Below, one piece after another: positions 1-9,442 of a stretch of DNA of 10,544 nucleotides. The notes beneath the pieces are model-generated. The model saw nothing but the letters and a program-made list of their open reading frames with translations, was not told the DNA's origin and made no database searches. The position numbers and the translations under genes were made by a program. The DNA is from Burkholderiaceae bacterium (GTDB taxonomy: Bacteria > Pseudomonadota > Gammaproteobacteria > Burkholderiales > Burkholderiaceae). How positions within the stretch are numbered: the stretch's first letter is position 1; each line of letters opens with the position of its first letter. The stretch covers positions 1 through 10,544 of the forward strand of contig CANISN010000039.1 of NCBI GenBank assembly GCA_947470165.1, read 5' to 3'.

Positions 1-261
1 CGTATCAATGAGCGAGAAGAGGGTGAGTTTGCTGTTACGGACACCGGGCCTGGAATTGCTTCTGAGCATCTCTCACGATTAACAGAGCGGTTTTATCGGG
101 TAGATCGAAGTCGTTCCCGAGATACGGGCGGTACCGGCCTAGGTTTGGCTATTGTGAAGCACATTGCTAGTCGCCATCAAGCGCAATTATTAATTGAAAG
201 CACCCCAGGGAAAGGGAGCACTTTTACCCTTAGATTCCCAAAGGAACGACTGACAGATTAA
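1..261 (+). CDS. phoR: PhoR-type phosphate sensor histidine kinase, C-terminal fragment
   Basis: The window opens inside this gene; only the last 86 codons are present, ending at TAA 259-261. The fragment is the distal half of a HATPase_c ATP-binding domain. Visible are the G1 box DTGPGI (fragment residues 14-19), an F box [10 protein letters not shown] (31-40) and the G2 box [12 protein letters not shown] (43-54), closed by the usual [15 protein letters not shown] strand. The FYRVD-R-R pattern before [12 protein letters not shown] is typical of PhoR/PhoR-like kinases, the inner-membrane sensors that phosphorylate PhoB when phosphate is scarce. The PhoR assignment rests on this motif style and on the neighbours: an exopolyphosphatase gene, a polyphosphate kinase gene and several Pho-box-like sites. 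The sensor and dimerisation domains lie outside the window, so another OmpR-partner kinase cannot be excluded. The convergent small gene ends only 9 bases away. Confidence 0.75.
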
Positions 262-270
262 GGGCTCTAA

Positions 271-504
271 TTAGTCTTTATTGTCCTTTTTCTCTTTTTT
301 ATCTTTCTTGTCCTTTTTCTCTTTCTTTTTCTTCGATTCCTTGGGCAGCTTGTCTAGCTTGCCATTGGCATATAGACACCAGACCTTAATCTCTTCTAAA
401 AGCTCAGTCAGATCCTCGTAAGATAGATTTTTAAAGTCCTGTAAGCCAATGACGCCAGACTCTTGAAGCTGTTTTACAGCATCTTCATACTTGTATTGAC
501 TCAT
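271..504 (-). CDS. Small hypothetical protein with a lysine/aspartate/glutamate-rich tail
   Basis: I do not recognise a family. The product is 77 residues if it starts at the ATG at 504 (MSQYKYEDAV), or 81 from a GTG at 516. I prefer the ATG because MSQYKYED is a natural N-terminus and neither start has a clear Shine-Dalgarno sequence. The first 50 or so residues look like a compact helical domain with regularly spaced acidic and hydrophobic residues (SYEDLTELLEEIKVW). The last 24 or so are a low-complexity, strongly basic KKKKEKKDKKDKKEKK tail, presumably disordered and possibly able to bind nucleic acid or polyanions. It converges with the phoR end (9 bases apart) and diverges from ppx. The ordered half makes a real gene likely, but its role is unknown. 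Confidence 0.6.
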   Translation of the reverse strand: MSQYKYEDAVKQLQESGVIGLQDFKNLSYEDLTELLEEIKVWCLYANGKLDKLPKESKKKKEKKDKKDKKEKKDNKD

Positions 505-640
505 AATGTTTGGCACTTAATAATCTTAATTTATCAATGTTAGCAAAGTATTGTGACAAAATTGACTTTTAACTGTTTAATGACTTGATGGCTACTTTTA
601 CCTATTGGATGCCAGTAGACTAAAGCCTCATTTCGCGAAT

Positions 641-672
641 TTGTCATCAGAGTTTCATAAAATAGACATATT
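641..672 (+). promoter_or_regulatory. Candidate Pho box and -10 for ppx
   Basis: TTGTCAT (641-647), a 4-base spacer CAGA, then GTTTCAT (652-658) match the PhoB repeat CTGTCAT at 6/7 and 5/7 positions with the correct 11-bp period. A weaker third repeat, TAGACAT at 663-669, matches 4/7. Eight bases after the second repeat lies CATATT (667-672), a 4/6 match to a -10 hexamer. The box ends 43 bases before the ppx start. This agrees with PhoB-activated promoters, where the box replaces the -35 element. It is a pattern match by eye, not a scored search. Confidence 0.5.
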
Positions 673-701
673 CAAATAAATATGCTGTTATTGGGAATAT
701 T

Positions 702-2243
702 TTGGCCGTACATCAAGACAAACTTGAAAAGAATGCAACTGACCTAGTCGCCGCAGTCGATCTAGGATCGAACAGCTTTCGTATGTTGGTGGCCCAAGTT
801 GTGAAAACGCCTTCGGGCACCCAGCTTCGCCCGATTGATACTCTGCGTGAGTCTGTTCGTCTTGCTGCTGGATTAACTGACAACAAATTATTAGGCAATG
901 ATGCTTATCAGCGTGGAATCACGGCGATTCGTCGCTTTGGTGAGCGCATTCGAGGGTTTGATCCTGCCAATGTGCGTGCCGTTGCCACCAATACCCTACG
1001 GGTAGCTAAAAATGCCCCCAACTTTATCCGTGAAGCTGAAGAAGCTTTAGGTTTCCCGATTGAAGTCATTGCAGGTGTAGAGGAGGCGCGCTTAATTTAT
1101 ATTGGTGCCGCTCATGAAGTGCCGGCAGTGCATGGTAATCGCTTGGTTGTAGATATCGGTGGCGGCTCTACAGAGCTCATTATTGGTAAAGCTTATGAGC
1201 CCAAGTTGATGGAGAGCTTATATATCGGATGCGTTTCTCATAGTCTCCGCTTCTTTCCAAAGGGAAATATAGATTCTCATGCCTTTAAAGAGGCAGAGTT
1301 AGCAGCAAGAAGAGAAATTCAGGTCATCTCTGGAGCGTATCTGAAGTATGGCTGGAAACAGGTGATCGGTTCTTCGGGGACTGCGCGCGCTTTAGCGGAG
1401 TTAATTGCTGAAAATAATTTCAATGGTCAGCCTGATGGCCTAACGAATGGTTTGATTACTCGTGATGGCTTAAGAGCCATGAAAAAGCATCTTCTCAAAT
1501 ACGAACACATCAACCAAGTTGAACTTCAGGGTCTTAAAGATGACCGAAGATCAGTGTGGCCTGGCGGCCTTGCCATCATGATTGCCGTATTTGATGAGCT
1601 TGGTATTGAGTCTATGGAAGTCACGGATGCCGCTTTGAGAATTGGCGTCCTTTATGACTTGTTAGGACGCTCGCAGCATGAGGACATGCGCTTTGTGACG
1701 GTTGAGCAATTTATGCAGCGCTATGCCGTAGATCGCGAGCAGGCTAAACGTGTGGGCAGCTTAGCTGCTGAGTTTTTGGCGCAACTCCCTAAACCAGATG
1801 AAGAGAGTCGGGCGGATAATATTGCCTTATTGCAATGGGCGGCAAATTTACATGAGATTGGCCTATCGATTTCTCATAACGGGTATCACAAGCATTCTGC
1901 ATACATCGCTGGTAATGCTGATATGCCAGGTTTCTCAAAGAATGATCAAGCTAGACTAGCTGCCTTGCTCATCGGGCATACCGGTAAATTGGGTAAGCTA
2001 GCAAACAACGCCTCTTTCTCTGATTGGCGAATGATATTTTGCATACGTCTTGCGCAAGTACTTTGCCGTGGACGCAGTGATATTAATCTACCTAGGGTGA
2101 AAGTCTCAGAGCACAACGGAGCCTATTTAGTCTCCCTCTCTAATGACTGGGCTAAAGAGCATCCGCTAACAGAATTTAGCCTGCAAAAAGAAGCGGCCGA
2201 ATGGGAGCGTATCGGCCGACCTTACAGCATTAGCTTGAAGTAA
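702..2243 (+). CDS. ppx: Exopolyphosphatase (Ppx/GppA family)
   Basis: This 513-residue cytoplasmic enzyme releases terminal phosphate from inorganic polyphosphate. It has the ASKHA-fold phosphate-1 loop (DLGSNSFRMLV, residues 20-30), TNTLR (97-101), the catalytic GVEEARLIY segment (125-133, with the glutamate that activates water) and the phosphate-2 loop VDIGGGSTE (150-158). An HD-like C-terminal helical domain follows (LHEIG at 383-387, YHKHSAYI at 395-402). The length matches long PPX enzymes rather than short Ppx/GppA forms. Guanosine pentaphosphatase (GppA) is the main alternative, but betaproteobacteria usually keep one such gene near phoR and call it ppx. The start is TTG at 702 with GGGAA 4 bases upstream; an in-frame stop at 663-665 limits any extension. 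It ends 4 bases from the convergent olsB-like gene. Confidence 0.9.
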   Translation: MAVHQDKLEKNATDLVAAVDLGSNSFRMLVAQVVKTPSGTQLRPIDTLRESVRLAAGLTDNKLLGNDAYQRGITAIRRFGERIRGFDPANVRAVATNTLRVAKNAPNFIREAEEALGFPIEVIAGVEEARLIYIGAAHEVPAVHGNRLVVDIGGGSTELIIGKAYEPKLMESLYIGCVSHSLRFFPKGNIDSHAFKEAELAARREIQVISGAYLKYGWKQVIGSSGTARALAELIAENNFNGQPDGLTNGLITRDGLRAMKKHLLKYEHINQVELQGLKDDRRSVWPGGLAIMIAVFDELGIESMEVTDAALRIGVLYDLLGRSQHEDMRFVTVEQFMQRYAVDREQAKRVGSLAAEFLAQLPKPDEESRADNIALLQWAANLHEIGLSISHNGYHKHSAYIAGNADMPGFSKNDQARLAALLIGHTGKLGKLANNASFSDWRMIFCIRLAQVLCRGRSDINLPRVKVSEHNGAYLVSLSNDWAKEHPLTEFSLQKEAAEWERIGRPYSISLK

Positions 2244-2247
2244 TCTT

Positions 2248-3183
2248 TTACTGTCCCAAGAAATGCTTTGCGTAGCGTGGATTGATCTCCGATAAGCGCA
2301 ACATGGTTAATACATCGGCAGTATTGAAGTCAGGATCCCAGGCGGGAGCGCTACAAATCTTGGCACCTAACTTTAAATAGCCTTTGATCAAGGGTGGAGG
2401 TTCTACTGCTAGGCCACCATTGAGACGATCTAGAGGTAAGGGTAAGCGAGGGAAGGCGTGATTTTCAACAGGCGCCATTTGATCATTGCTGAGTGAGTTA
2501 TATAAACTGGCTGCAAAGTGACCACCATCAGCCATAGGAATACTGGCACAACCGAGCATGATTTCATAATCGTGCTTTTGCATGTACTGGGCAAGTCCAC
2601 TCCACAGAGCCATGATGACAGCACCGGAGCGATAGTCTTCATGCACGCAAGATCTACCAAGCTCTACCAACTTAGGGCGTAAGTGGTTTAGACGCGTTAA
2701 ATCAAATTCTGAATCTGAATACAGGTGTCCAATTTCTAAAGCCTTGTGTGGGGGTAGTACACGGTAGGTACCAACTACTTTAAGCGACTCTTGATCGCGA
2801 ATCAGTAAATGATCGCAATAGGCATCAAATTCATCAATATCGAGGTTTTCAGGATTCTTCGGAAGATTGGCACCCATCTCTTCTGCGAATACTTTGTAGC
2901 GCAGGCGCTGTGCTTCTTTAATTTCACTGATATTGCTAGCCCAAGTGATTTGAAAAGCAGGACGCTTTGGCTTGGCGATCGTCTTCTCAATAACTGGCTC
3001 TATGGCCCTGAGTTCTGCCCGTGCCTTAGTCGCAAATTTTTTGCCAAATAACTTCTTCGCTATTTTTTTTGAGAAGAGTTTCTTAATAGCTTCAGTTTTG
3101 CTCTTTTTAACTTTCTTTGGCTTTATTTCAAAGCGTGAATCAAATAGATCAAATGCAGCGAGTGGATTTGGAATATCAGACAT
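2248..3183 (-). CDS. olsB: OlsB-like GNAT N-acyltransferase (ornithine lipid synthesis, first step)
   Basis: The 311-residue protein carries a PF13444-type acyltransferase domain. It shows the signature RLRYKVFAEEMGA (93-105), DEFDAYCDHLLIRD (117-130), VVGTYRVLP (136-144), VELGRSCVHEDYR (173-185) and LWSGLAQYM (193-201). The C-terminal PPLIKGYLKLGAKICSAPAWDPDFNTADV stretch is typical of OlsB, which transfers a 3-hydroxyacyl group from acyl-ACP to the alpha-amine of ornithine. A longer reading frame to 3231 would overlap dgkA by 40 bases. I start at the ATG at 3183 because AAGGA sits 5 bases upstream, overlapping the dgkA stop. It is the last gene of a tight four-gene operon. Residues 21-75 form an unusual lysine-rich extension before the catalytic domain. 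Related PF13444 acyltransferases acting on other amines are the alternative; context with plcP, agt and olsA favours lipid synthesis. Confidence 0.75.
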   Translation of the reverse strand: MSDIPNPLAAFDLFDSRFEIKPKKVKKSKTEAIKKLFSKKIAKKLFGKKFATKARAELRAIEPVIEKTIAKPKRPAFQITWASNISEIKEAQRLRYKVFAEEMGANLPKNPENLDIDEFDAYCDHLLIRDQESLKVVGTYRVLPPHKALEIGHLYSDSEFDLTRLNHLRPKLVELGRSCVHEDYRSGAVIMALWSGLAQYMQKHDYEIMLGCASIPMADGGHFAASLYNSLSNDQMAPVENHAFPRLPLPLDRLNGGLAVEPPPLIKGYLKLGAKICSAPAWDPDFNTADVLTMLRLSEINPRYAKHFLGQ

Positions 3184-3191
3184 GGTGTTCC

Positions 3192-3596
3192 TTAAAGAAT
3201 AGTAATAATGGGAATACAAATCGTTGCCCACAATAAGGCAGCGATGAGAAGCGCCAGCATGACTGCGGCCGAGCCAAAGTCTTTGGCTCGCTTTGATAGA
3301 TCGTGGTGATCAAATGAAATACGATCAATCGCCGCCTCTACGCTAGAGTTCAATAACTCGACTACTAAAACCATGATGAGTGAGGCAATGAGAACGCATT
3401 TTTCAAGTGGGCTAATCGGTAAAACAAAGGCAATAGGGCTCAATACAGCCAGTAAGAAAAGCTCTTGCCGAAAAGCACTTTCTTCCTGAAATGCATACAC
3501 CATGCCGCACCAGGAGTTTTTAGCCGCATGCCATGCTCTCGTGAGCCCACGATTGCCCTTATGAGGGTTTTGCTTAATGTCGTATGGAGTAGTCAA
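3192..3596 (-). CDS. dgkA: Diacylglycerol kinase (DgkA family)
   Basis: This 134-residue inner-membrane protein has the DgkA pattern: an amphipathic N-terminal TRAWHAAKNSWCGM (19-32), EESAFRQE (38-45) and three hydrophobic segments (about 46-63, 65-82, 108-131). The catalytic core VVELLNSSVEAAIDRI (78-93) keeps both key glutamates, E80 and E87, and is followed by the conserved RAKDFGSAAV (103-112). It phosphorylates diacylglycerol to phosphatidate using ATP. The start is TTG at 3596; there is no ATG until residue 32, which lies inside the conserved region, and no strong ribosome binding site is visible. The gene lies 8 bases after the glycosyltransferase stop and its own stop overlaps the olsB ribosome binding site. 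In this operon it could recover diacylglycerol released by the PlcP-like enzyme, or limit flux into glycolipid. Undecaprenol kinase is a less likely relative. Confidence 0.9.
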   Translation of the reverse strand: MTTPYDIKQNPHKGNRGLTRAWHAAKNSWCGMVYAFQEESAFRQELFLLAVLSPIAFVLPISPLEKCVLIASLIMVLVVELLNSSVEAAIDRISFDHHDLSKRAKDFGSAAVMLALLIAALLWATICIPIITIL

Positions 3597-3604
3597 GGCA
3601 GATC

Positions 3605-4633
3605 TTAAGCGAGCGCTGTCATGTGGACGGTTGTCGAAGGTACAGGCTTGAGATGCCTAGCAAACTGCTCAGACGCTGCTCTCCAAGAGAATTTCTCAGC
3701 ATGGGCTCGTGCTACTTCACGTGGAATCTTGAGGGCCTGCATGCAGGCCTCGCGCAGGTCCTCATTCATGGCGCCAGCAGGAGAGTCACCCAAAACATCG
3801 ATTGGGCCAGTGACTGGGTAAGCAGCTACGGGAGTGCCACAAGCCATGGCCTCTAATAAGACCAGCCCAAAAGTATCTGTCTTGCTTGGGAATACAAATA
3901 CATCAGCAGCAGCATAGACCTTGGCTAACTCATGCTGTTGCAATACGCCAAGGTAATTAATATTGGGATATTTTTCCTTAATGCCGGCCATTGCTGGACC
4001 ATCTCCAACAACCCATTTGGAGCCCGGTAAATCTATTTCTAAGAAAGCATTAATATTTTTCTCAACAGCTACACGGCCAACATATAAAAAGATTGGATGT
4101 GCAGTGTTTAAAGATTTTGACTCTTGCATCTTAAAGATATCTAAATCTACGCCCCGTGACCACAACACAACATTTTTGAGACCGTATTTCTCAAGATCAT
4201 CTTTAACGACAATGGTCGGTGCCATTACGGCCATTGAAGGGCCATGGAACCAGCGAATGAAAGCATAGGTAATTGCAAGCGGAATCCCAGTACGGGCTTT
4301 GACGTATTCAGGAAAGCGGGTGTGATATGCCGTAGAGAAAGGCAAATCATTCTTAACGGCATAGGAGCGGGCTGATAATCCTAAGGGACCCTCTGTAGCA
4401 ATATGAATTGCATCTGGTGCGAATTCTTTAATTCGGCGAGCCACTTCTTTTCCGGGGAATAAGGACAGAGCAATATCAGGATAGGTAGGGCAGGGAATCG
4501 ATTTAAAGCCGTTTGGCGTAATCATCTCCACTTCATGTCCCATAGCAAGGAGTTCTGTGCGAGTTTGCTTCAGTGTTCTCACGACCCCGTTGACTTGCGG
4601 ATCCCATGCATCAGTAATGATCATAATTTTCAT
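3605..4633 (-). CDS. agt: GT4 glycosyltransferase, probable Agt-like diacylglycerol glycosyltransferase
   Basis: A 342-residue GT-B fold enzyme without a signal peptide. The N-terminal acceptor domain opens MKIMIITDAWDPQVNGVVRTL, with the glycine-containing loop at 13-18. The C-terminal nucleotide-sugar domain has VGRVAVEKN (185-193, with phosphate-contacting R187 and K192) and VVGDGP (208-213). It also has FVFPSKTDTFGLVLLEAMACGTPVAAYP (246-273), where the usual EX7E motif reads D253-X7-E261. The family holds SqdX, PimB and the Agt enzymes that glycosylate diacylglycerol in phosphate-starved bacteria. Its ATG overlaps the plcP stop as ATGA (4630-4633), with AAGAGG just upstream, implying translational coupling. 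Coupling to a PlcP-like gene is the classic plcP-agt arrangement and is the main reason for the specific call. Sugar donor and acceptor cannot be read from sequence; a polysaccharide glycosyltransferase remains possible. Confidence 0.7.
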   Translation of the reverse strand: MKIMIITDAWDPQVNGVVRTLKQTRTELLAMGHEVEMITPNGFKSIPCPTYPDIALSLFPGKEVARRIKEFAPDAIHIATEGPLGLSARSYAVKNDLPFSTAYHTRFPEYVKARTGIPLAITYAFIRWFHGPSMAVMAPTIVVKDDLEKYGLKNVVLWSRGVDLDIFKMQESKSLNTAHPIFLYVGRVAVEKNINAFLEIDLPGSKWVVGDGPAMAGIKEKYPNINYLGVLQQHELAKVYAAADVFVFPSKTDTFGLVLLEAMACGTPVAAYPVTGPIDVLGDSPAGAMNEDLREACMQALKIPREVARAHAEKFSWRAASEQFARHLKPVPSTTVHMTALA

Positions 4634-5448
4634 ACGGTAGCCTCTTTGATAAGTGCTTCAACAGCAGGTTGATAAGTCATTTCTGGGGCCGTTGTTACCT
4701 CCGCTGGATCACCTTTGATATGGGTCCAGTAAATAATTTTGAGTTCGCCGGTGGTGGTCTCAACAAGTGCCGATAGGCTTTCCACCCAATCACCGTCGTT
4801 GCAATACAGCAGACCATCGATTTCACGGATTTCTGCTTTATGGATATGACCACAAACGACACCATCGCAATCTCTTAGGCGGGCCTCTCTAGCCATGATG
4901 TGCTCAAAGTCGGCGATATAGCTGACCGCATTTTTTACTTGATGCTTAAGATACTGGGAGAGTGACCAATATTGCAGTCCCATCTTGATGCGCATCATGT
5001 TGAAATAGCGATTGATATACAGAATGAATGAGTACAGAGAGTCACCGACATACGCAAGCCACTTGGCGTATTGCATTACGCCATCAAATAAGTCGCCATG
5101 AGTTACCCAAAGCTTGCGACCATCTAGGGTTGTATGGATTACTTCTTCTTGAACCTTGATATCGCCAAAGGACATGCCAAAGTACTGCCGAGCTGCTTCG
5201 TCATGATTGCCGGGTATATAAATGACTTCACTACCTTTACGGGCTTTACGCAATAATTTTTGAACGACGTCATTGTGGGTCTGTGGCCAGTAAAAAGATT
5301 GCTTAAGGCGCCAACCATCGATAATGTCCCCAACCAGATAAAACTTGTCGGCTTCATTATGTTTTAAGAAATCGAGGAGGTAGTTTGCTTGACACCCTGA
5401 AGTCCCCAGGTGCACATCTGAAATCCAAATCGCTCTGTAATGCATCAT
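4630..5448 (-). CDS. plcP: PlcP-like metallophosphoesterase (phospholipase C type, LpxH-related)
   Basis: A 272-residue calcineurin-type phosphoesterase with all metal-site motifs intact: SDVHLG (10-15, D11 and H13), GDIIDG (40-45), GNHDE (80-84), THGD (116-119) and GHIHKA (199-204). Databases tend to name this family UDP-2,3-diacylglucosamine diphosphatase, but at about 270 residues, with the long internal helical insert and the GHIHKAEIREI ending, it resembles PlcP. PlcP hydrolyses phospholipids to diacylglycerol and a phosphorylated head group under phosphate starvation. The product is probably cytoplasmic and peripheral to the inner membrane; no signal peptide is seen. It is the first gene of the plcP-agt-dgkA-olsB operon, overlaps agt by 4 bases and has a strong Pho-box array 35 bases upstream. 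The start is ATGATG at 5448 with no obvious Shine-Dalgarno sequence. A true LpxH role in lipid A synthesis is the main alternative. Confidence 0.75.
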   Translation of the reverse strand: MMHYRAIWISDVHLGTSGCQANYLLDFLKHNEADKFYLVGDIIDGWRLKQSFYWPQTHNDVVQKLLRKARKGSEVIYIPGNHDEAARQYFGMSFGDIKVQEEVIHTTLDGRKLWVTHGDLFDGVMQYAKWLAYVGDSLYSFILYINRYFNMMRIKMGLQYWSLSQYLKHQVKNAVSYIADFEHIMAREARLRDCDGVVCGHIHKAEIREIDGLLYCNDGDWVESLSALVETTTGELKIIYWTHIKGDPAEVTTAPEMTYQPAVEALIKEATV

Positions 5449-5469
5449 GAGTAGACATTAAGCCGATTG

Positions 5470-5512
5470 ATTGTGTAGGCATCATGACATTTTTATGTCA
5501 GTTTGATGACTT
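5470..5512 (-). promoter_or_regulatory. Triple Pho-box array and -10 for the plcP operon
   Basis: Read on the minus strand, three 7-bp repeats follow each other at an exact 11-bp period. They are AAGTCAT (5512-5506), CTGACAT (5501-5495) and ATGTCAT (5490-5484), matching CTGTCAT at 5/7, 6/7 and 6/7, with spacers CAAA and AAAA. CACAAT (5475-5470), a 4/6 -10 match, begins 8 bases after the last repeat, the same geometry as at ppx. The array lies in an 84-base divergent gap, so PhoB bound here could also influence the olsA-like gene. Read forward, the region offers only a weak box (ATGTCAG and ATGACTT, 9/14). Confidence 0.65.
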
Positions 5513-5532
5513 GATTTATATTACGGGCAGAC

Positions 5533-6306
5533 ATGAAGAATTCTCAAACAAAAGTCATTTCAACTCCGAGTAGTTATCAACGCTGTTGGGTTTGGACACG
5601 CATCCTTTTGCATGTAATTTCTGGGGTCTGCACGCTTTTATTTATCTTTCCCTTTGTAAGTCAAACTCAAAAAGACCGCCATATTCAGCAATGGTCTAAG
5701 CAATTATTGAAAATATTTCATATTCAGTCACGGGTAGTGGGAGCGAATAAATTAGTTTCCACCCCCTATCTTCTAGCATCAAATCACATCTCCTGGCTCG
5801 ATATTCATGTGATTAATGCATTCAAACCAGTTCGGTTTGTGGCTAAATCTGAGGTAAGGGCATGGCCAGTGTTTGGATGGATGGCAGTGCAACTGGGTAC
5901 CGTATTTATTCGCAGGGATAGTGCGCGACATGCGAGACAGGTTGTAGATCAGATGGCTGCGGTCTTGAAAGCAGAGTCGGTCTGCATTTTTCCCGAAGGA
6001 ACTTCCACCGCTGGAGAATCCGTATTGCCGTTTAAGCCTAACCTATTTGAATCTGCCATCCTTGCTAAAGTCCCAGTCACTCCTGTGGCAATTGCTTACC
6101 GGTCACGTTCAACAGGCCTTAGAAGCGATGCCCCTGCCTTTATTGGAAAGATGGGTCTTCTTGAATCAATGTCTAATGTCATTAGTAATCGGGATATAGA
6201 GGCACATTTAAGCCTACTTGAGCCCTATTTAATAAGTAATGCAGCCAATCCGGATCGCAAGGAGCTCGCTGTCTATTGTCAAGAGTCCATCGCTAAAACC
6301 TTATAA
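5533..6306 (+). CDS. olsA: OlsA/PlsC-like 1-acylglycerol-3-phosphate or lyso-ornithine lipid O-acyltransferase
   Basis: A 257-residue inner-membrane acyltransferase with one N-terminal membrane segment (about 23-43). The catalytic HX4D motif is NHISWLD (84-90, H85 and D90). The acceptor-binding block is FIRRDSARHARQV (125-137), followed by FPEGTSTAGE (153-162) and VPVTPVAIAY (180-189). The domain is shared by PlsC, which makes phosphatidate, and OlsA, which acylates lyso-ornithine lipid. The HISWLDI block and the divergent pairing with an operon containing an OlsB-like gene favour OlsA, and some members do both reactions. If a dedicated plsC exists elsewhere in the genome the OlsA call gains weight. 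The start is ATG at 5533 with a weak GGGCAG upstream. It shares the 84-base intergenic operator region with plcP and ends 7 bases before the ppk2 Pho box. Confidence 0.75.
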   Translation: MKNSQTKVISTPSSYQRCWVWTRILLHVISGVCTLLFIFPFVSQTQKDRHIQQWSKQLLKIFHIQSRVVGANKLVSTPYLLASNHISWLDIHVINAFKPVRFVAKSEVRAWPVFGWMAVQLGTVFIRRDSARHARQVVDQMAAVLKAESVCIFPEGTSTAGESVLPFKPNLFESAILAKVPVTPVAIAYRSRSTGLRSDAPAFIGKMGLLESMSNVISNRDIEAHLSLLEPYLISNAANPDRKELAVYCQESIAKTL

Positions 6307-6313
6307 ACGGTAT

Positions 6314-6347
6314 ATGTAATAAAAGTGTCATATCCTAGAGGTACAAA
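6314..6347 (+). promoter_or_regulatory. Candidate Pho box for ppk2
   Basis: ATGTAAT (6314-6320), spacer AAAA, then GTGTCAT (6325-6331) match the PhoB repeat at 5/7 and 6/7 with an 11-bp period. The spacer sequence is the same as in the plcP box. A possible -10, TACAAA (6342-6347), lies 10 bases downstream. The box ends 40 bases before the ppk2 ATG. It starts 7 bases after the olsA stop, so ppk2 may have its own phosphate-responsive promoter in addition to read-through. Confidence 0.45.
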
Positions 6348-6371: not shown

Positions 6372-7277
6372 ATGACGTCAAAACATAAAGCTATGGACGA
6401 GTGGTACAAGCGCGCTCGGGAAGATATTTTAGATAGTATGGATGAAGAGCTCGAAATGGAGCTCGATGATGATCGCTTATCGCCCGATGGCGTAAGTGGC
6501 TCTGCCATGCCACGCAATGTCTACTTTAAGGAATTGTTTCGCCTGCAAGGTGAATTAGTAAAACTCCAAGATTGGGTAGTGGAAAACAAACTCAAGGTAG
6601 CTGTTTTATTTGAAGGTCGTGATTCTGCGGGTAAGGGTGGCGCGATCAAACGGATTACCCAACGTCTTAATCCCCGCGTTTGTAAAGTCGTTGCATTGAC
6701 TGCACCTAGCGAGCGTGAAAAAACCCAATGGTACTTTCAGCGATATGTATCAAACTTGCCTGCTGGTGGAGAGATCGTATTGTTTGACCGCAGCTGGTAC
6801 AACCGTGCTGGTGTTGAAAAGGTCATGGGATTTTGTAACGATGCCGAGTATGAAGAGTTCTTGCGCACAGTGCCTGAGTTTGAGCGCATGATTATCCGTT
6901 CCGGAATTATTTTGATTAAATACTGGTTCTCCATCTCAGACGATGAGCAATACAGCCGCTTCATGGTGCGGATTCATGATCCACTCAAGCAATGGAAGCT
7001 TAGTCCAATGGACTTGGATGCTCGCCGTCATTGGGAGGCCTATACCAAGGCAAAAGAGATTATGTTGGAACGAACCAATATTCCTGAGGCGCCTTGGTGG
7101 GTGGTGGCTGCAAACGATAAGAAAAAAGCCCGCCTTAATTGCATTTCGCACTTATTGACTCAAATTCCTTATAGTGAAATTTCTCATCCTGAAATCACCT
7201 TGCCTGCACGGGTTCATAATCCCGACTACCTTCGTGGGCCTGTACCGAAAAAGATGTACGTTCCCGAGATCTATTGA
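6372..7277 (+). CDS. ppk2: Polyphosphate kinase 2, class I
   Basis: A 301-residue single-domain PPK2. The Walker A loop is FEGRDSAGKGGAIKR (80-94) and the Walker B/DRSWYNR motif is LFDRSWYNRAGVE (137-149). The lid region FMVRIHDPLKQWKLSPMD (197-214) and the family's PWWVVAANDKKKARLN (241-256) follow, ending in the common LRGPVPKKMYVPEIY-type tail. The length and the single domain fit class I enzymes, which use polyphosphate to phosphorylate nucleoside diphosphates (GDP or ADP). PPK2 differs from membrane-associated PPK1, which mainly synthesises polyphosphate. The N-terminal 45 residues are acidic (EELEMELDDDR) and variable. The start ATG at 6372 has GGAAAGAGA just upstream. The gene lies 65 bases after the olsA-like gene, with its own Pho-box-like site, and converges with the TonB receptor gene. 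Nucleotide preference cannot be decided from sequence. Confidence 0.92.
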   Translation: MTSKHKAMDEWYKRAREDILDSMDEELEMELDDDRLSPDGVSGSAMPRNVYFKELFRLQGELVKLQDWVVENKLKVAVLFEGRDSAGKGGAIKRITQRLNPRVCKVVALTAPSEREKTQWYFQRYVSNLPAGGEIVLFDRSWYNRAGVEKVMGFCNDAEYEEFLRTVPEFERMIIRSGIILIKYWFSISDDEQYSRFMVRIHDPLKQWKLSPMDLDARRHWEAYTKAKEIMLERTNIPEAPWWVVAANDKKKARLNCISHLLTQIPYSEISHPEITLPARVHNPDYLRGPVPKKMYVPEIY

Positions 7278-7354: not shown

Positions 7355-9442
7355 TTAGAAAGTTCCCCGCAGACCTACTATCAGACTTCTTCCCGGCTGA
7401 GGAGCATAGAGTCTGACTGCCATAGGAGTAGTTGCGTACCGAATTTGCTCATTAAGTAAGTTCTTCAAATTCATATATAAAGTCCAATTCACATCCTTAA
7501 TCTTTTCTGTATAGGAGATGCCGGCATTGAGTAAGTTATAGCTTGGTGCAGGCCCTTGTTCCCAACTAGCCAATCTATTTTGCTGATAACTGTAGATGTA
7601 GGTCGCATTAGTGAGCCAACCATTGCGTTGATGAGCTAGCTCTGCACCTAAACGTGGGGCAGGTTGAAGTGGTAAATTTCCACCAGCGTCAAAAGTGCCC
7701 TGGGAAGCATCGCCAAATACGCGACCACCAATACCATGCTGTCGCCAGTTGTAGGTCAGCTCACCCTCAATGCCTTTGATAGTCGCTGATGCTTGCTGTG
7801 CTACTACTACAGAAAAGTCCTCTACACCAGGAACGGATTTGCCAGTGTAGTAACCGTAGATGTAATTATTAAAGCGATTAGCATACACACTGGCCTTTGA
7901 TCTCATTAAGCCGCTAGTCTTTTGAATATTAAACTCTAAATTATGAGAAGTTTCTTTATTGAGATTGGGATTACCAATATCAAAAGTAGCAGTAGATTCA
8001 TGAGCGCCATAGGAGTAGAGCTCTTGTGCGCTTGGAGCTCGTTGTGAAACTGTGTATGCAACTCCAGTTCCATAGCCTTGCATGAAGCTCCAAAGACCGC
8101 CCGCAGAGTAAGACATCAAATTGAAGCTGCGATTTTGTAAGCTAATACTTGGCGTATTACCACCTATATTCATCGCTTGTGGTACTAGCTCAGTACCTAA
8201 ATTCGGTTTCTGTGCCACATTGTTATAGCGCAGACCTAGGTTTCCTTGTAGAGAATTCCATTTGCCTTCTTCAATCCAAAATAAGGCATTGGAATTAGTC
8301 TTCGTTGGCGGAACAATGGCATAACTTCCAGAGCCTACTTCAGTCGCATTAAGTGATGCTGCTGATACTTGTACACCGAAGATGCCTTTCCAGCCAGCAA
8401 TGCGGTTATGGGCTAATTCAAAGCGGGCTTCGTTAGCGATGTTCCTCCATAGCGATGCTGCTGCACCAACATTATTAAATTCAGTATGGCTGTAATTAGA
8501 ATTAGCTACACTCAATTTTAAGGCTGAAAATCCAGCAAAAGGATCCCGTGTTTCATGCTGAAGATCATATCGATTCTGAGATTGATTAATCGAGCCGCCT
8601 TCAGATGTTGGTATGCCGTAGTTATTATTTAAACGCTCGACTGACATACCGGTATAGCCGTTCTGTCCAATATAAGAAACACCCACACCTAAATTATCTT
8701 GGTTACTAAACGAGTTTGGTAGCTTGCCACTGTAATTTTTTCCACCATTGCCAGTAGCTGGTACGGTCCAGCCGCCTGTTGGTTGGCCTTGGGATTGCGT
8801 TGAGTTTCCAGGGATACGGTAACTATTAGCATTATTAATTGCTGTATCTACATGGACCGCTACTGAGCCAAATGCGCTATCGACTTCTAAGGCGCCAGCT
8901 CTACCGTTATTCACTGTTTCATAACTCGTATTAAGAGCACCTGTTGGACGATCAGGCAAGTTCGTCAAGATGCGGTCATTTACTACATTGACTAAACCAC
9001 CACTTGAGCCTGAGCCGTAGAGTAGGGCGGCAGCGCCGCGTAGGATTTCTACTTGGTGGGCATTTTGCATATTGTTAGCAACAGCATGGTCTTGCGAGAT
9101 GTTAGATACATCGCCAACAGATAAACCGTTTTGCAAAATCTGTACACGCGATCCCTCAAGACCACGAATCACTGGACGCGATGAGCCTGCCCCATAGCCA
9201 GTAGCAGATACTCCTAGCTCATTGGCAAGGGTAGCTCCAAGTGTCGTGCCCAATTTATTGAGTAATTCATCACCTTGCAAAATCTTTGTGGGCGTCAAAA
9301 TACTTTGAGTAGCTTCCGTTGAGCCTGTCGCAGTAATTTCTAAAGAGGGCTGAGATTGAGCTAAAGCGGAAGAGCTGATGAGTCCGGATACCAGAATATA
9401 GATTAGCTTTTGCTTAGCCAATGGCTGGTTAATTTGATACAT
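7355..9442 (-). CDS. TonB-dependent outer-membrane receptor, ZnuD-like
   Basis: A 695-residue outer-membrane receptor. Residues 1-28 are a signal peptide (KLIYILVSGLISSSALA, cleavage before QSQ). A TonB-box-like LEITATG (34-40) follows. The plug domain contains RPVIRGLEGSRVQILQNG, DVSNISQDHAVANN and QVEILRGAAALLYGSGSSGGLVNVV. The rest is a beta-barrel ending in GLRGTF, with the terminal phenylalanine needed for assembly. The QDHA motif after the RGLEG segment resembles neisserial ZnuD (SPDHA), so zinc or another divalent metal is the likely substrate, but no long His-rich loop is visible. Energy comes from TonB-ExbBD elsewhere. The ATG at 9442 has AAGGA six bases upstream. The upstream His/Cys-containing small gene is probably co-transcribed. 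Siderophore or heme uptake is a less likely alternative. Confidence 0.82.
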   Translation of the reverse strand: MYQINQPLAKQKLIYILVSGLISSSALAQSQPSLEITATGSTEATQSILTPTKILQGDELLNKLGTTLGATLANELGVSATGYGAGSSRPVIRGLEGSRVQILQNGLSVGDVSNISQDHAVANNMQNAHQVEILRGAAALLYGSGSSGGLVNVVNDRILTNLPDRPTGALNTSYETVNNGRAGALEVDSAFGSVAVHVDTAINNANSYRIPGNSTQSQGQPTGGWTVPATGNGGKNYSGKLPNSFSNQDNLGVGVSYIGQNGYTGMSVERLNNNYGIPTSEGGSINQSQNRYDLQHETRDPFAGFSALKLSVANSNYSHTEFNNVGAAASLWRNIANEARFELAHNRIAGWKGIFGVQVSAASLNATEVGSGSYAIVPPTKTNSNALFWIEEGKWNSLQGNLGLRYNNVAQKPNLGTELVPQAMNIGGNTPSISLQNRSFNLMSYSAGGLWSFMQGYGTGVAYTVSQRAPSAQELYSYGAHESTATFDIGNPNLNKETSHNLEFNIQKTSGLMRSKASVYANRFNNYIYGYYTGKSVPGVEDFSVVVAQQASATIKGIEGELTYNWRQHGIGGRVFGDASQGTFDAGGNLPLQPAPRLGAELAHQRNGWLTNATYIYSYQQNRLASWEQGPAPSYNLLNAGISYTEKIKDVNWTLYMNLKNLLNEQIRYATTPMAVRLYAPQPGRSLIVGLRGTF

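Follow-up and report, generated by a model that had tools for sequence, protein, structure and literature searches.

Replacement of membrane lipids under phosphorus shortage has been described for marine bacteria (PMC4796936). The closest described system is the plcP-agt gene pair of SAR11, Erythrobacter, Methylosinus, and Pseudomonas aeruginosa, in which plcP is followed by agt and the promoter carries a Pho box (PMC4796936, PMC9239053, PMC8528852). According to PMC8528852, Agt1 forms glucosyl-diacylglycerol and Agt2 forms glucuronosyl-diacylglycerol. The pair corresponds to the “type 2” neighborhood among the six types set out in a main-text section of PMC4796936, a section in which no ols gene is named. 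In Pseudomonas, PlcP, DagK, OlsA, and OlsB are together called lipid-remodelling proteins; PlcP and OlsAB were absent in a regulator mutant, and their genes lie apart (plcP as PPUBIRD1_1390, olsA-olsB as 0974-0975; PMC5082522). Burkholderia has an OlsBA pathway (OlsB Bcal1281), with Pho boxes before olsB in some species (PMC7814305). Here, we describe a locus in which the same four functions and an agt-like gene form one unit, on contig CANISN010000039.1. The window, meaning the whole stretch of DNA analyzed, is this complete contig of 10,544 bases, and belongs to the draft genome of a freshwater bacterium of Polynucleobacter type (GCA_947470165.1; 1.80 Mb, 82% complete).

The minus strand of the window carries, in order of reading, plcP (4630..5448, start at 5448), encoding a metallophosphoesterase predicted to remove phospholipid head groups; an agt-like gene for a glycosyltransferase of family 4 (GT4; 3605..4633), predicted to glycosylate diacylglycerol; dgkA for diacylglycerol kinase (3192..3596; PF01219, E 1.1e-32); and an olsB-like gene for an ornithine N-acyltransferase (2248..3183; PF13444, E 2.3e-38). 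The olsA-like gene for a lyso-ornithine lipid O-acyltransferase (5533..6306, plus strand) diverges from plcP across a gap of 84 bp. In comparison to the known pair, the locus thus adds dgkA, olsB, and a divergent olsA, while plcP and agt share the 4-base overlap seen in P. aeruginosa. An earlier note, made from the sequence alone, had named these five genes as a compact operon with a divergent fifth gene. Their coordinates and the gap bear this out, and Pfam assigned each product above cut-off to the expected class (Acetyltransf_5, DAGK_prokar, GT4 domains, Metallophos, and Acyltransferase). The gaps of 8 bases on either side of dgkA are correct provided that the ATG at 3183 is taken as the olsB start; a GTG at 3231, chosen by the open reading frame (ORF) tool, would give a longer product and an overlap with dgkA. 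The whole set is flanked by ppx and ppk2.

We consider it likely, with a probability of roughly 85%, that these genes constitute a Pho-regulated module for replacing membrane phospholipid. This reading draws on gene content, homology, a repeat array, conservation, and gene history, from which we infer PhoB binding, substrates, products, joint transcription, and the control of olsA. When phosphate is short, PhoB would bind an array of 11-bp repeats in the 84-bp gap and switch on plcP-agt-dgkA-olsB, and perhaps also the divergent olsA. PlcP would then strip the phosphate head group from phospholipids, leaving diacylglycerol, which the GT4 enzyme could convert into a glycosyl-diacylglycerol. Since Agt1 and Agt2 of PMC8528852 make different products, the predicted sugar is glucose and/or glucuronate. 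DgkA may return surplus diacylglycerol to phosphatidic acid, and OlsB and OlsA would produce ornithine lipid. Polyphosphate would be handled alongside by the products of ppx and ppk2, each of which has a Pho-box match of its own.

The window was scanned on both strands with the Pho-box consensus, with matches counted out of 14. Its top match (12/14) lies at 5484-5501 on the minus strand, between plcP and olsA, within an array of direct repeats spaced 11 bp apart that reads towards plcP (5473..5512, minus strand). The next unit of the array scores 11/14 (5495-5512). A fourth, weakest unit (5473-5479) and a -10-like CTTAAT about 10 nt after the last repeat (5457..5462), both on the minus strand, were read by eye. 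Four matches in the window score 11/14: the next unit of the array, one before ppx (641..658, plus strand), one before ppk2 (6314..6331, plus strand), and one inside the GT4 gene.

The array is conserved in place. The comparison covered 44 loci (the window, L033-L055, L131-L149 including Jezberella as L144, and L156), 43 of them with enough upstream sequence. Upstream of plcP, 38 of the 43, the window included, reach at least 11 of 14, compared to 1.6% of dinucleotide shuffles, and in 36 the top-scoring site begins at -42 or -53. Starts inside the unit stay near the level of shuffles (agt, 1/43 reaching 11; dgkA, 0/37), and a score of 11 is reached before ppx in 9 of 15 loci and before ppk2 in 15 of 23. 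For 13 of 50 loci, start codons were checked individually: an ATG for olsA occurs at a distance of 84-87 bp from the start of plcP in all except L053 (77 bp). The link to phosphate that the earlier note had proposed is strengthened by this array. In having a conserved box in a constant position upstream of its leading gene, the cluster matches what is expected of a putative Pho-regulon member.

The synteny that the earlier note had suggested searching for was found in most of the loci examined in the genus. PlcP was matched in 23 of 24 other genomes of the genus, in two of them only in pieces; the remaining genome (G022, 83% complete) gave no PlcP match. Among the 23 loci, all five genes stand together in 18 (L033-L048, L050, and L053), dgkA is missing from the cluster in 3 (L049, L051, and L052), and 2 are broken (L054 and L055). 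A partly overlapping set of 19 named Polynucleobacter-type loci showed all five genes in 14, no dgkA in 3, and a cut by the contig end in 2. Chance adjacency is ruled out by this conservation.

Both broken loci retain recognizable remains of the cluster. In G017 (1.55 Mb, one contig), a region of 16.3 kb holds only pieces of plcP, olsB, and olsA, all three interrupted by stops, and of a TonB gene; agt, dgkA, ppx, and ppk2 were not found in it. ORFs cover 0.68 of this region, versus 0.79-0.93 in the other 22 loci of the genus. Our guess is that G017 is one of the ciliate endosymbionts of the genus (PMC5018217). In G023, the coding sequence of plcP is divided between two frames, as is that of olsA, and the alignment of olsB begins only at residue 46; ppx, agt, dgkA, ppk2, and the TonB gene each align whole and free of stops. 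These breaks may reflect decay or sequencing error.

Parts of the cluster are found separately in relatives. The 120 best-listed PlcP homologs are 73-99% identical, and those with an organism name are labeled Polynucleobacter, Burkholderiaceae, Betaproteobacteria, or Pseudomonadota. Named loci were studied as the best 80 of at least 590 (19 of Polynucleobacter type and 61 others, at most 9 kb per side), so near relatives are over-represented; the closest were from Polynucleobacter strains and metagenome-assembled genomes of Burkholderiaceae or beta-proteobacteria. In 58 of the 61 others, dgkA lies behind plcP-agt on the same strand within about 0.5 kb, in Cupriavidus, Burkholderia, Paraburkholderia, Caballeronia, Ralstonia, Pandoraea, Trinickia, and others. 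No olsB or olsA was found in any of the 61 within the 9 kb or less available on each side.

The second part can be traced through the order. At the limits set, plcP was matched in 77, olsB in 104, and ppx in 145 of 150 genomes. Read by eye, olsB stands tail-to-tail with ppx, at up to about 220 bp, in 10 of the 150: three from Polynucleobacter and seven others (G139, G172, G027, G041, G118, G122, and G153). In five of these seven, plcP is on a different contig or separated by 67 kb or more; the other two gave no plcP match. Five more genomes (G061, G065, G102, G108, and G145) have olsB next to ppx on the same strand. The OlsB of the window groups with that of two relatives from the same family, in which olsB likewise adjoins ppx; unlike in the window, no plcP is found there in the 18 kb covered. 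As plcP-agt-dgkA and ppx-olsB thus occur separately elsewhere, the cluster appears to have arisen by the joining of these two older units.

Other lineages have joined plcP and olsB in other ways. Among 75 other loci of the order (L056-L130), we found olsB-plcP (G155), olsB-plcP-agt (G031), plcP-agt-olsB (G128), olsB 0.8 kb before plcP (G092), and olsB-olsA on the opposite strand at most 1.5 kb from plcP (G044 and G164); L099, in the same set, represents the case from another family described below. At the level of the class, PlcP was found in 32 of 114 genomes, including G000 and G072. The four-gene order was absent from 20 neighborhoods drawn from the 30 PlcP genomes other than these two; 5 of the 20 contained an OlsB-like match within 8 kb.

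Part of the cluster recurs in another family (f26), taken to be the Methylophilaceae, with PlcP in 20 of 80 genomes. In one of its genera (g92), 7 of 8 genomes encode PlcP. Its genomes measure 1.2-1.4 Mb and its loci have a GC content of 37-38.5%, which fits ‘Ca. Methylopumilus’ (1.28-1.31 Mb, 37% GC; PMC10872708), as we infer. In all seven g92 loci, the short L213 included, olsB lies behind plcP with no agt between them, and olsA is divergent. The PlcP tree places g92 inside the Polynucleobacter branch (support 100/99), together with a subclade that lacks dgkA (98/93), and a grouping of the g92 PlcP with four PlcP from other f26 genera was rejected (approximately unbiased [AU] test, p 3e-45). 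The OlsB tree gives g92 the same neighbors (SH-aLRT 97), as does the OlsA tree more weakly (81). A single Polynucleobacter clade was not rejected for PlcP (AU p 0.225) or OlsB (p 0.41), and was rejected for OlsA (p 0.017). The groups for these topology tests were chosen after a tree had been seen. In the six g92 loci tested, the repeats before plcP occupy the conserved position, at -42 in five and -41 in one, with scores of only 10 or 11; shuffles reach 11 in 5%.

Two further cases extend this pattern. In G243 (L220), from another f26 genus, dgkA and the olsA|plcP-olsB set stand together, and its PlcP falls in the same clade as that of g92. Its OlsB stands apart from other f26 OlsB on a very long branch, which argues against one joint transfer to this genome. 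The PlcP of Jezberella montanilacus lies within the Polynucleobacter branch (99/96), and agt and dgkA follow its plcP. Together, the trees provide good evidence that part of the cluster was probably shared across families by lateral transfer, the likelier direction being from Polynucleobacter to f26. In a fuller history, on which our judgment is evenly balanced, two older Pho units would have been combined into the module in Polynucleobacter; it would then have passed to further members of the plankton, and would be lost on entry into endosymbiosis. The passage would have comprised plcP-olsB|olsA with its promoter layout to ‘Ca. Methylopumilus’-like bacteria, and plcP-agt-dgkA to Jezberella.

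Six f26 loci (L239-L244) contain a separate, best-matching GT4 gene, with the best Pho-box match at -42 in five. Their scores range from 8 to 11, four of them at least 10, and shuffles reach 11 in 0.8%. Perhaps this gene stands in for the missing agt.

PlcP relatives were also present on seven contigs from a viral collection (L270-L276), six of them 47-51% identical, with no agt, dgkA, or ols genes in the stretches examined. Ten proteins from two of these contigs were scanned: seven matched PHROGs families, none of them described as structural or for replication and four without known function, and several had host-like Pfam domains. Given these results, a viral carrier of the cluster is not claimed, and the relatives may be either auxiliary genes or on misfiled contigs.

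The earlier note had further supposed that the arrangement is special. This holds for the fusion as such, and for its conservation within the genus and sharing with a second family. It does not extend to plcP-agt-dgkA, which is usual in the Burkholderiaceae, nor to the joining of plcP and olsB as such, given the joins in other lineages; uniqueness to this organism is rejected. The same comparisons bear on whether the adjacency reflects only a small genome packing its Pho-regulated genes, with functionally uncoupled routes and dgkA as a passenger. This is possible, though we doubt it: ppx and ppk2 have Pho-box matches of their own in the same stretch, olsB adjoins ppx outside the genus without plcP, and dgkA is missing in some loci, but plcP and olsB have been joined in other lineages as well (G031, G155, and G128), and a plcP-olsB|olsA set of related sequence is found in a different family.

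OlsB and OlsA are the weakest names of the five genes. For the olsB product, the two top NCBIfam models, at 179 of 350 and 177 of 320 bits, are OlsB equivalogs; for the olsA product, they are OlsA models (130 and 125 of 300 bits), with a PlsC-type model, TIGR00530, at 97 of 103 bits. The nearest models thus agree with the acyltransferases proposed in the earlier note, and since their scores are below cut-off we write “OlsB-like” and “OlsA-like.” Among solved structures, there was no match for OlsB and one PlsC for OlsA. As these scores come to roughly half of the curated cut-offs or less, the glycolipid route could operate while OlsB and OlsA make another N-acyl amino acid lipid, or while the OlsA-like protein acts chiefly as an additional PlsC. 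There are precedents: lysine lipids are further products of OlsB and OlsA in Acinetobacter baumannii, and the OlsA of Rhodobacter capsulatus has an additional role in the synthesis of phosphatidic acid (PMC11828411). We nevertheless consider this unlikely, as the ornithine models rank first and the glycine GlsB model is far behind (24 bits), the OlsB groups with those of the two ppx-adjoining relatives, and a second gene of the TIGR00530/PlsC family is present elsewhere in the genome.

The window OlsB also has a lysine-rich N-terminal extension (2950-3183, minus strand), as do most Polynucleobacter loci examined. The stretch before the motif RYKVF has 86-110 residues with 13-24 lysines or arginines in 13 extended loci (two cut at a different place), and 47-49 residues with 3-4 in two f26 loci.

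The phosphoesterase was placed relative to LpxH by pairwise identity, model scores, and motifs. Over 234 aa, it shares 55% identity with the PlcP-type protein encoded beside a glycosyltransferase gene in P. aeruginosa, and over 257 aa, 50% with a homolog on pSymB of Sinorhizobium meliloti, which has no glycosyltransferase gene beside it. Its motifs are SDVHLG, GDIIDG, GNHDE, HGD, and GHIH. In the P. aeruginosa reference, located on a plasmid record, the PlcP-type gene and the glycosyltransferase gene overlap by 4 bases and are followed by the gene for CyaB, presumably PA3217. The glycosyltransferase gene of P. aeruginosa lies directly after PA3219 in PMC8528852; because of this order and the CyaB gene that follows, the reference pair is taken to be the characterized PA3219/PA3218. 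The GT4 protein of the window is 48% identical over 325 aa to this glycosyltransferase, in the same position and with the same overlap, which upholds its designation as Agt-like; its two top NCBIfam models are lipid glycosyltransferases, and the solved structures it matches are general GT4 enzymes. DgkA matched solved DgkA chains at E 8e-25. PlcP itself matched three LpxH sequences among solved structures (E about 5e-5). That the phosphoesterase is in fact LpxH, in a cluster for lipid A or surface polysaccharide with a polysaccharide-forming glycosyltransferase, is very improbable: sources label nearly all homologs LpxH or UDP-2,3-diacylglucosamine diphosphatase, and GT4 enzymes are diverse, but the LpxH models score just 37 and 44 bits (cut-offs, 190 and 134), a true lpxH (226 bits, above cut-off) lies elsewhere in the genome with GNRDFL in place of GNHDE, and gene pair, overlap, and Pho box all speak for PlcP, as the earlier note had it.

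Several observations weigh against a phosphate-controlled remodeling module. PlcP and the GT4 protein fall below every NCBIfam cut-off listed, OlsB and OlsA fall below theirs though first in rank, and DgkA gave no NCBIfam model at E 0.001. DgkA also consumes the diacylglycerol that Agt needs, and six otherwise intact loci (3/23 in the genus set, 3/19 in the named set) have no dgkA in the cluster. Before plcP, 5 of 43 loci score below 11, among them the broken L055 (10). A match of its own (at least 11) precedes olsB in 13 of 39 loci, so olsB need not always depend on the plcP promoter. Several of the 13 olsA loci contain other possible start codons, and olsA in A. baumannii is reported to be without phosphate regulation (PMC11828411).

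The surroundings of the cluster add to the description in the earlier note, as does the Pho-box array. On the plus strand, the window opens within a gene for a histidine kinase, of which the contig retains only the C-terminal end (1..261); this is probably PhoR by its appearance and its position before ppx in relatives. It is followed by an ORF of 81 aa on the minus strand (271-516), with a tail rich in lysine and aspartate and no Pfam family; relatives of this ORF follow phoR in L134 and L136 and lie away from phoR in L148. The exopolyphosphatase gene ppx (702..2243, plus strand; TIGR03706, 320 versus 307 bits) is convergent with olsB, and ppk2 for polyphosphate kinase 2 (6372..7277, plus strand; TIGR03707, 369 versus 302 bits) follows olsA. 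In relatives such as L134, phoR and ppx are separated by about 2.5 kb, enough room for ppk1; in the window (262-701) and L136 they are not. A PF02503 search of the 82%-complete genome gave no match for ppk1, which seems to be absent from it, and polyphosphate synthesis may rest on ppk2. A gene for a ZnuD-like TonB-dependent receptor (7355-9442, minus strand; 375 bits versus a cut-off of 950) adjoins the cluster, followed by two tRNAs, the only hits above threshold in a scan for structured RNAs.

Among the papers listed in searches of the open-licence literature in PubMed Central, none described this gene arrangement, and no paper contained both “Polynucleobacter” and “plcP”; “Polynucleobacter” with “ornithine lipid” returned only a Burkholderia taxonomy paper. 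The kinds of enzymes and the kind of switch are known. What is new is their conserved combination, and the plcP-olsB|olsA version with a Polynucleobacter-type PlcP in the 1.2-1.4 Mb genomes of another family; the joining of the two routes and its partial sharing with a small bacterium of that family seem new. A single Polynucleobacter taxon accounts for a mean of about 20% of the bacterioplankton across various fresh waters (PMC3308952). With the module, lipid replacement in lakes becomes open to direct testing, and it is a candidate gene marker for phosphorus stress there. With both routes behind one switch, their division of labor could be tested within a single organism. If the proposed history is true, the module would represent a shared, laterally acquired response of lake bacteria to phosphorus shortage.

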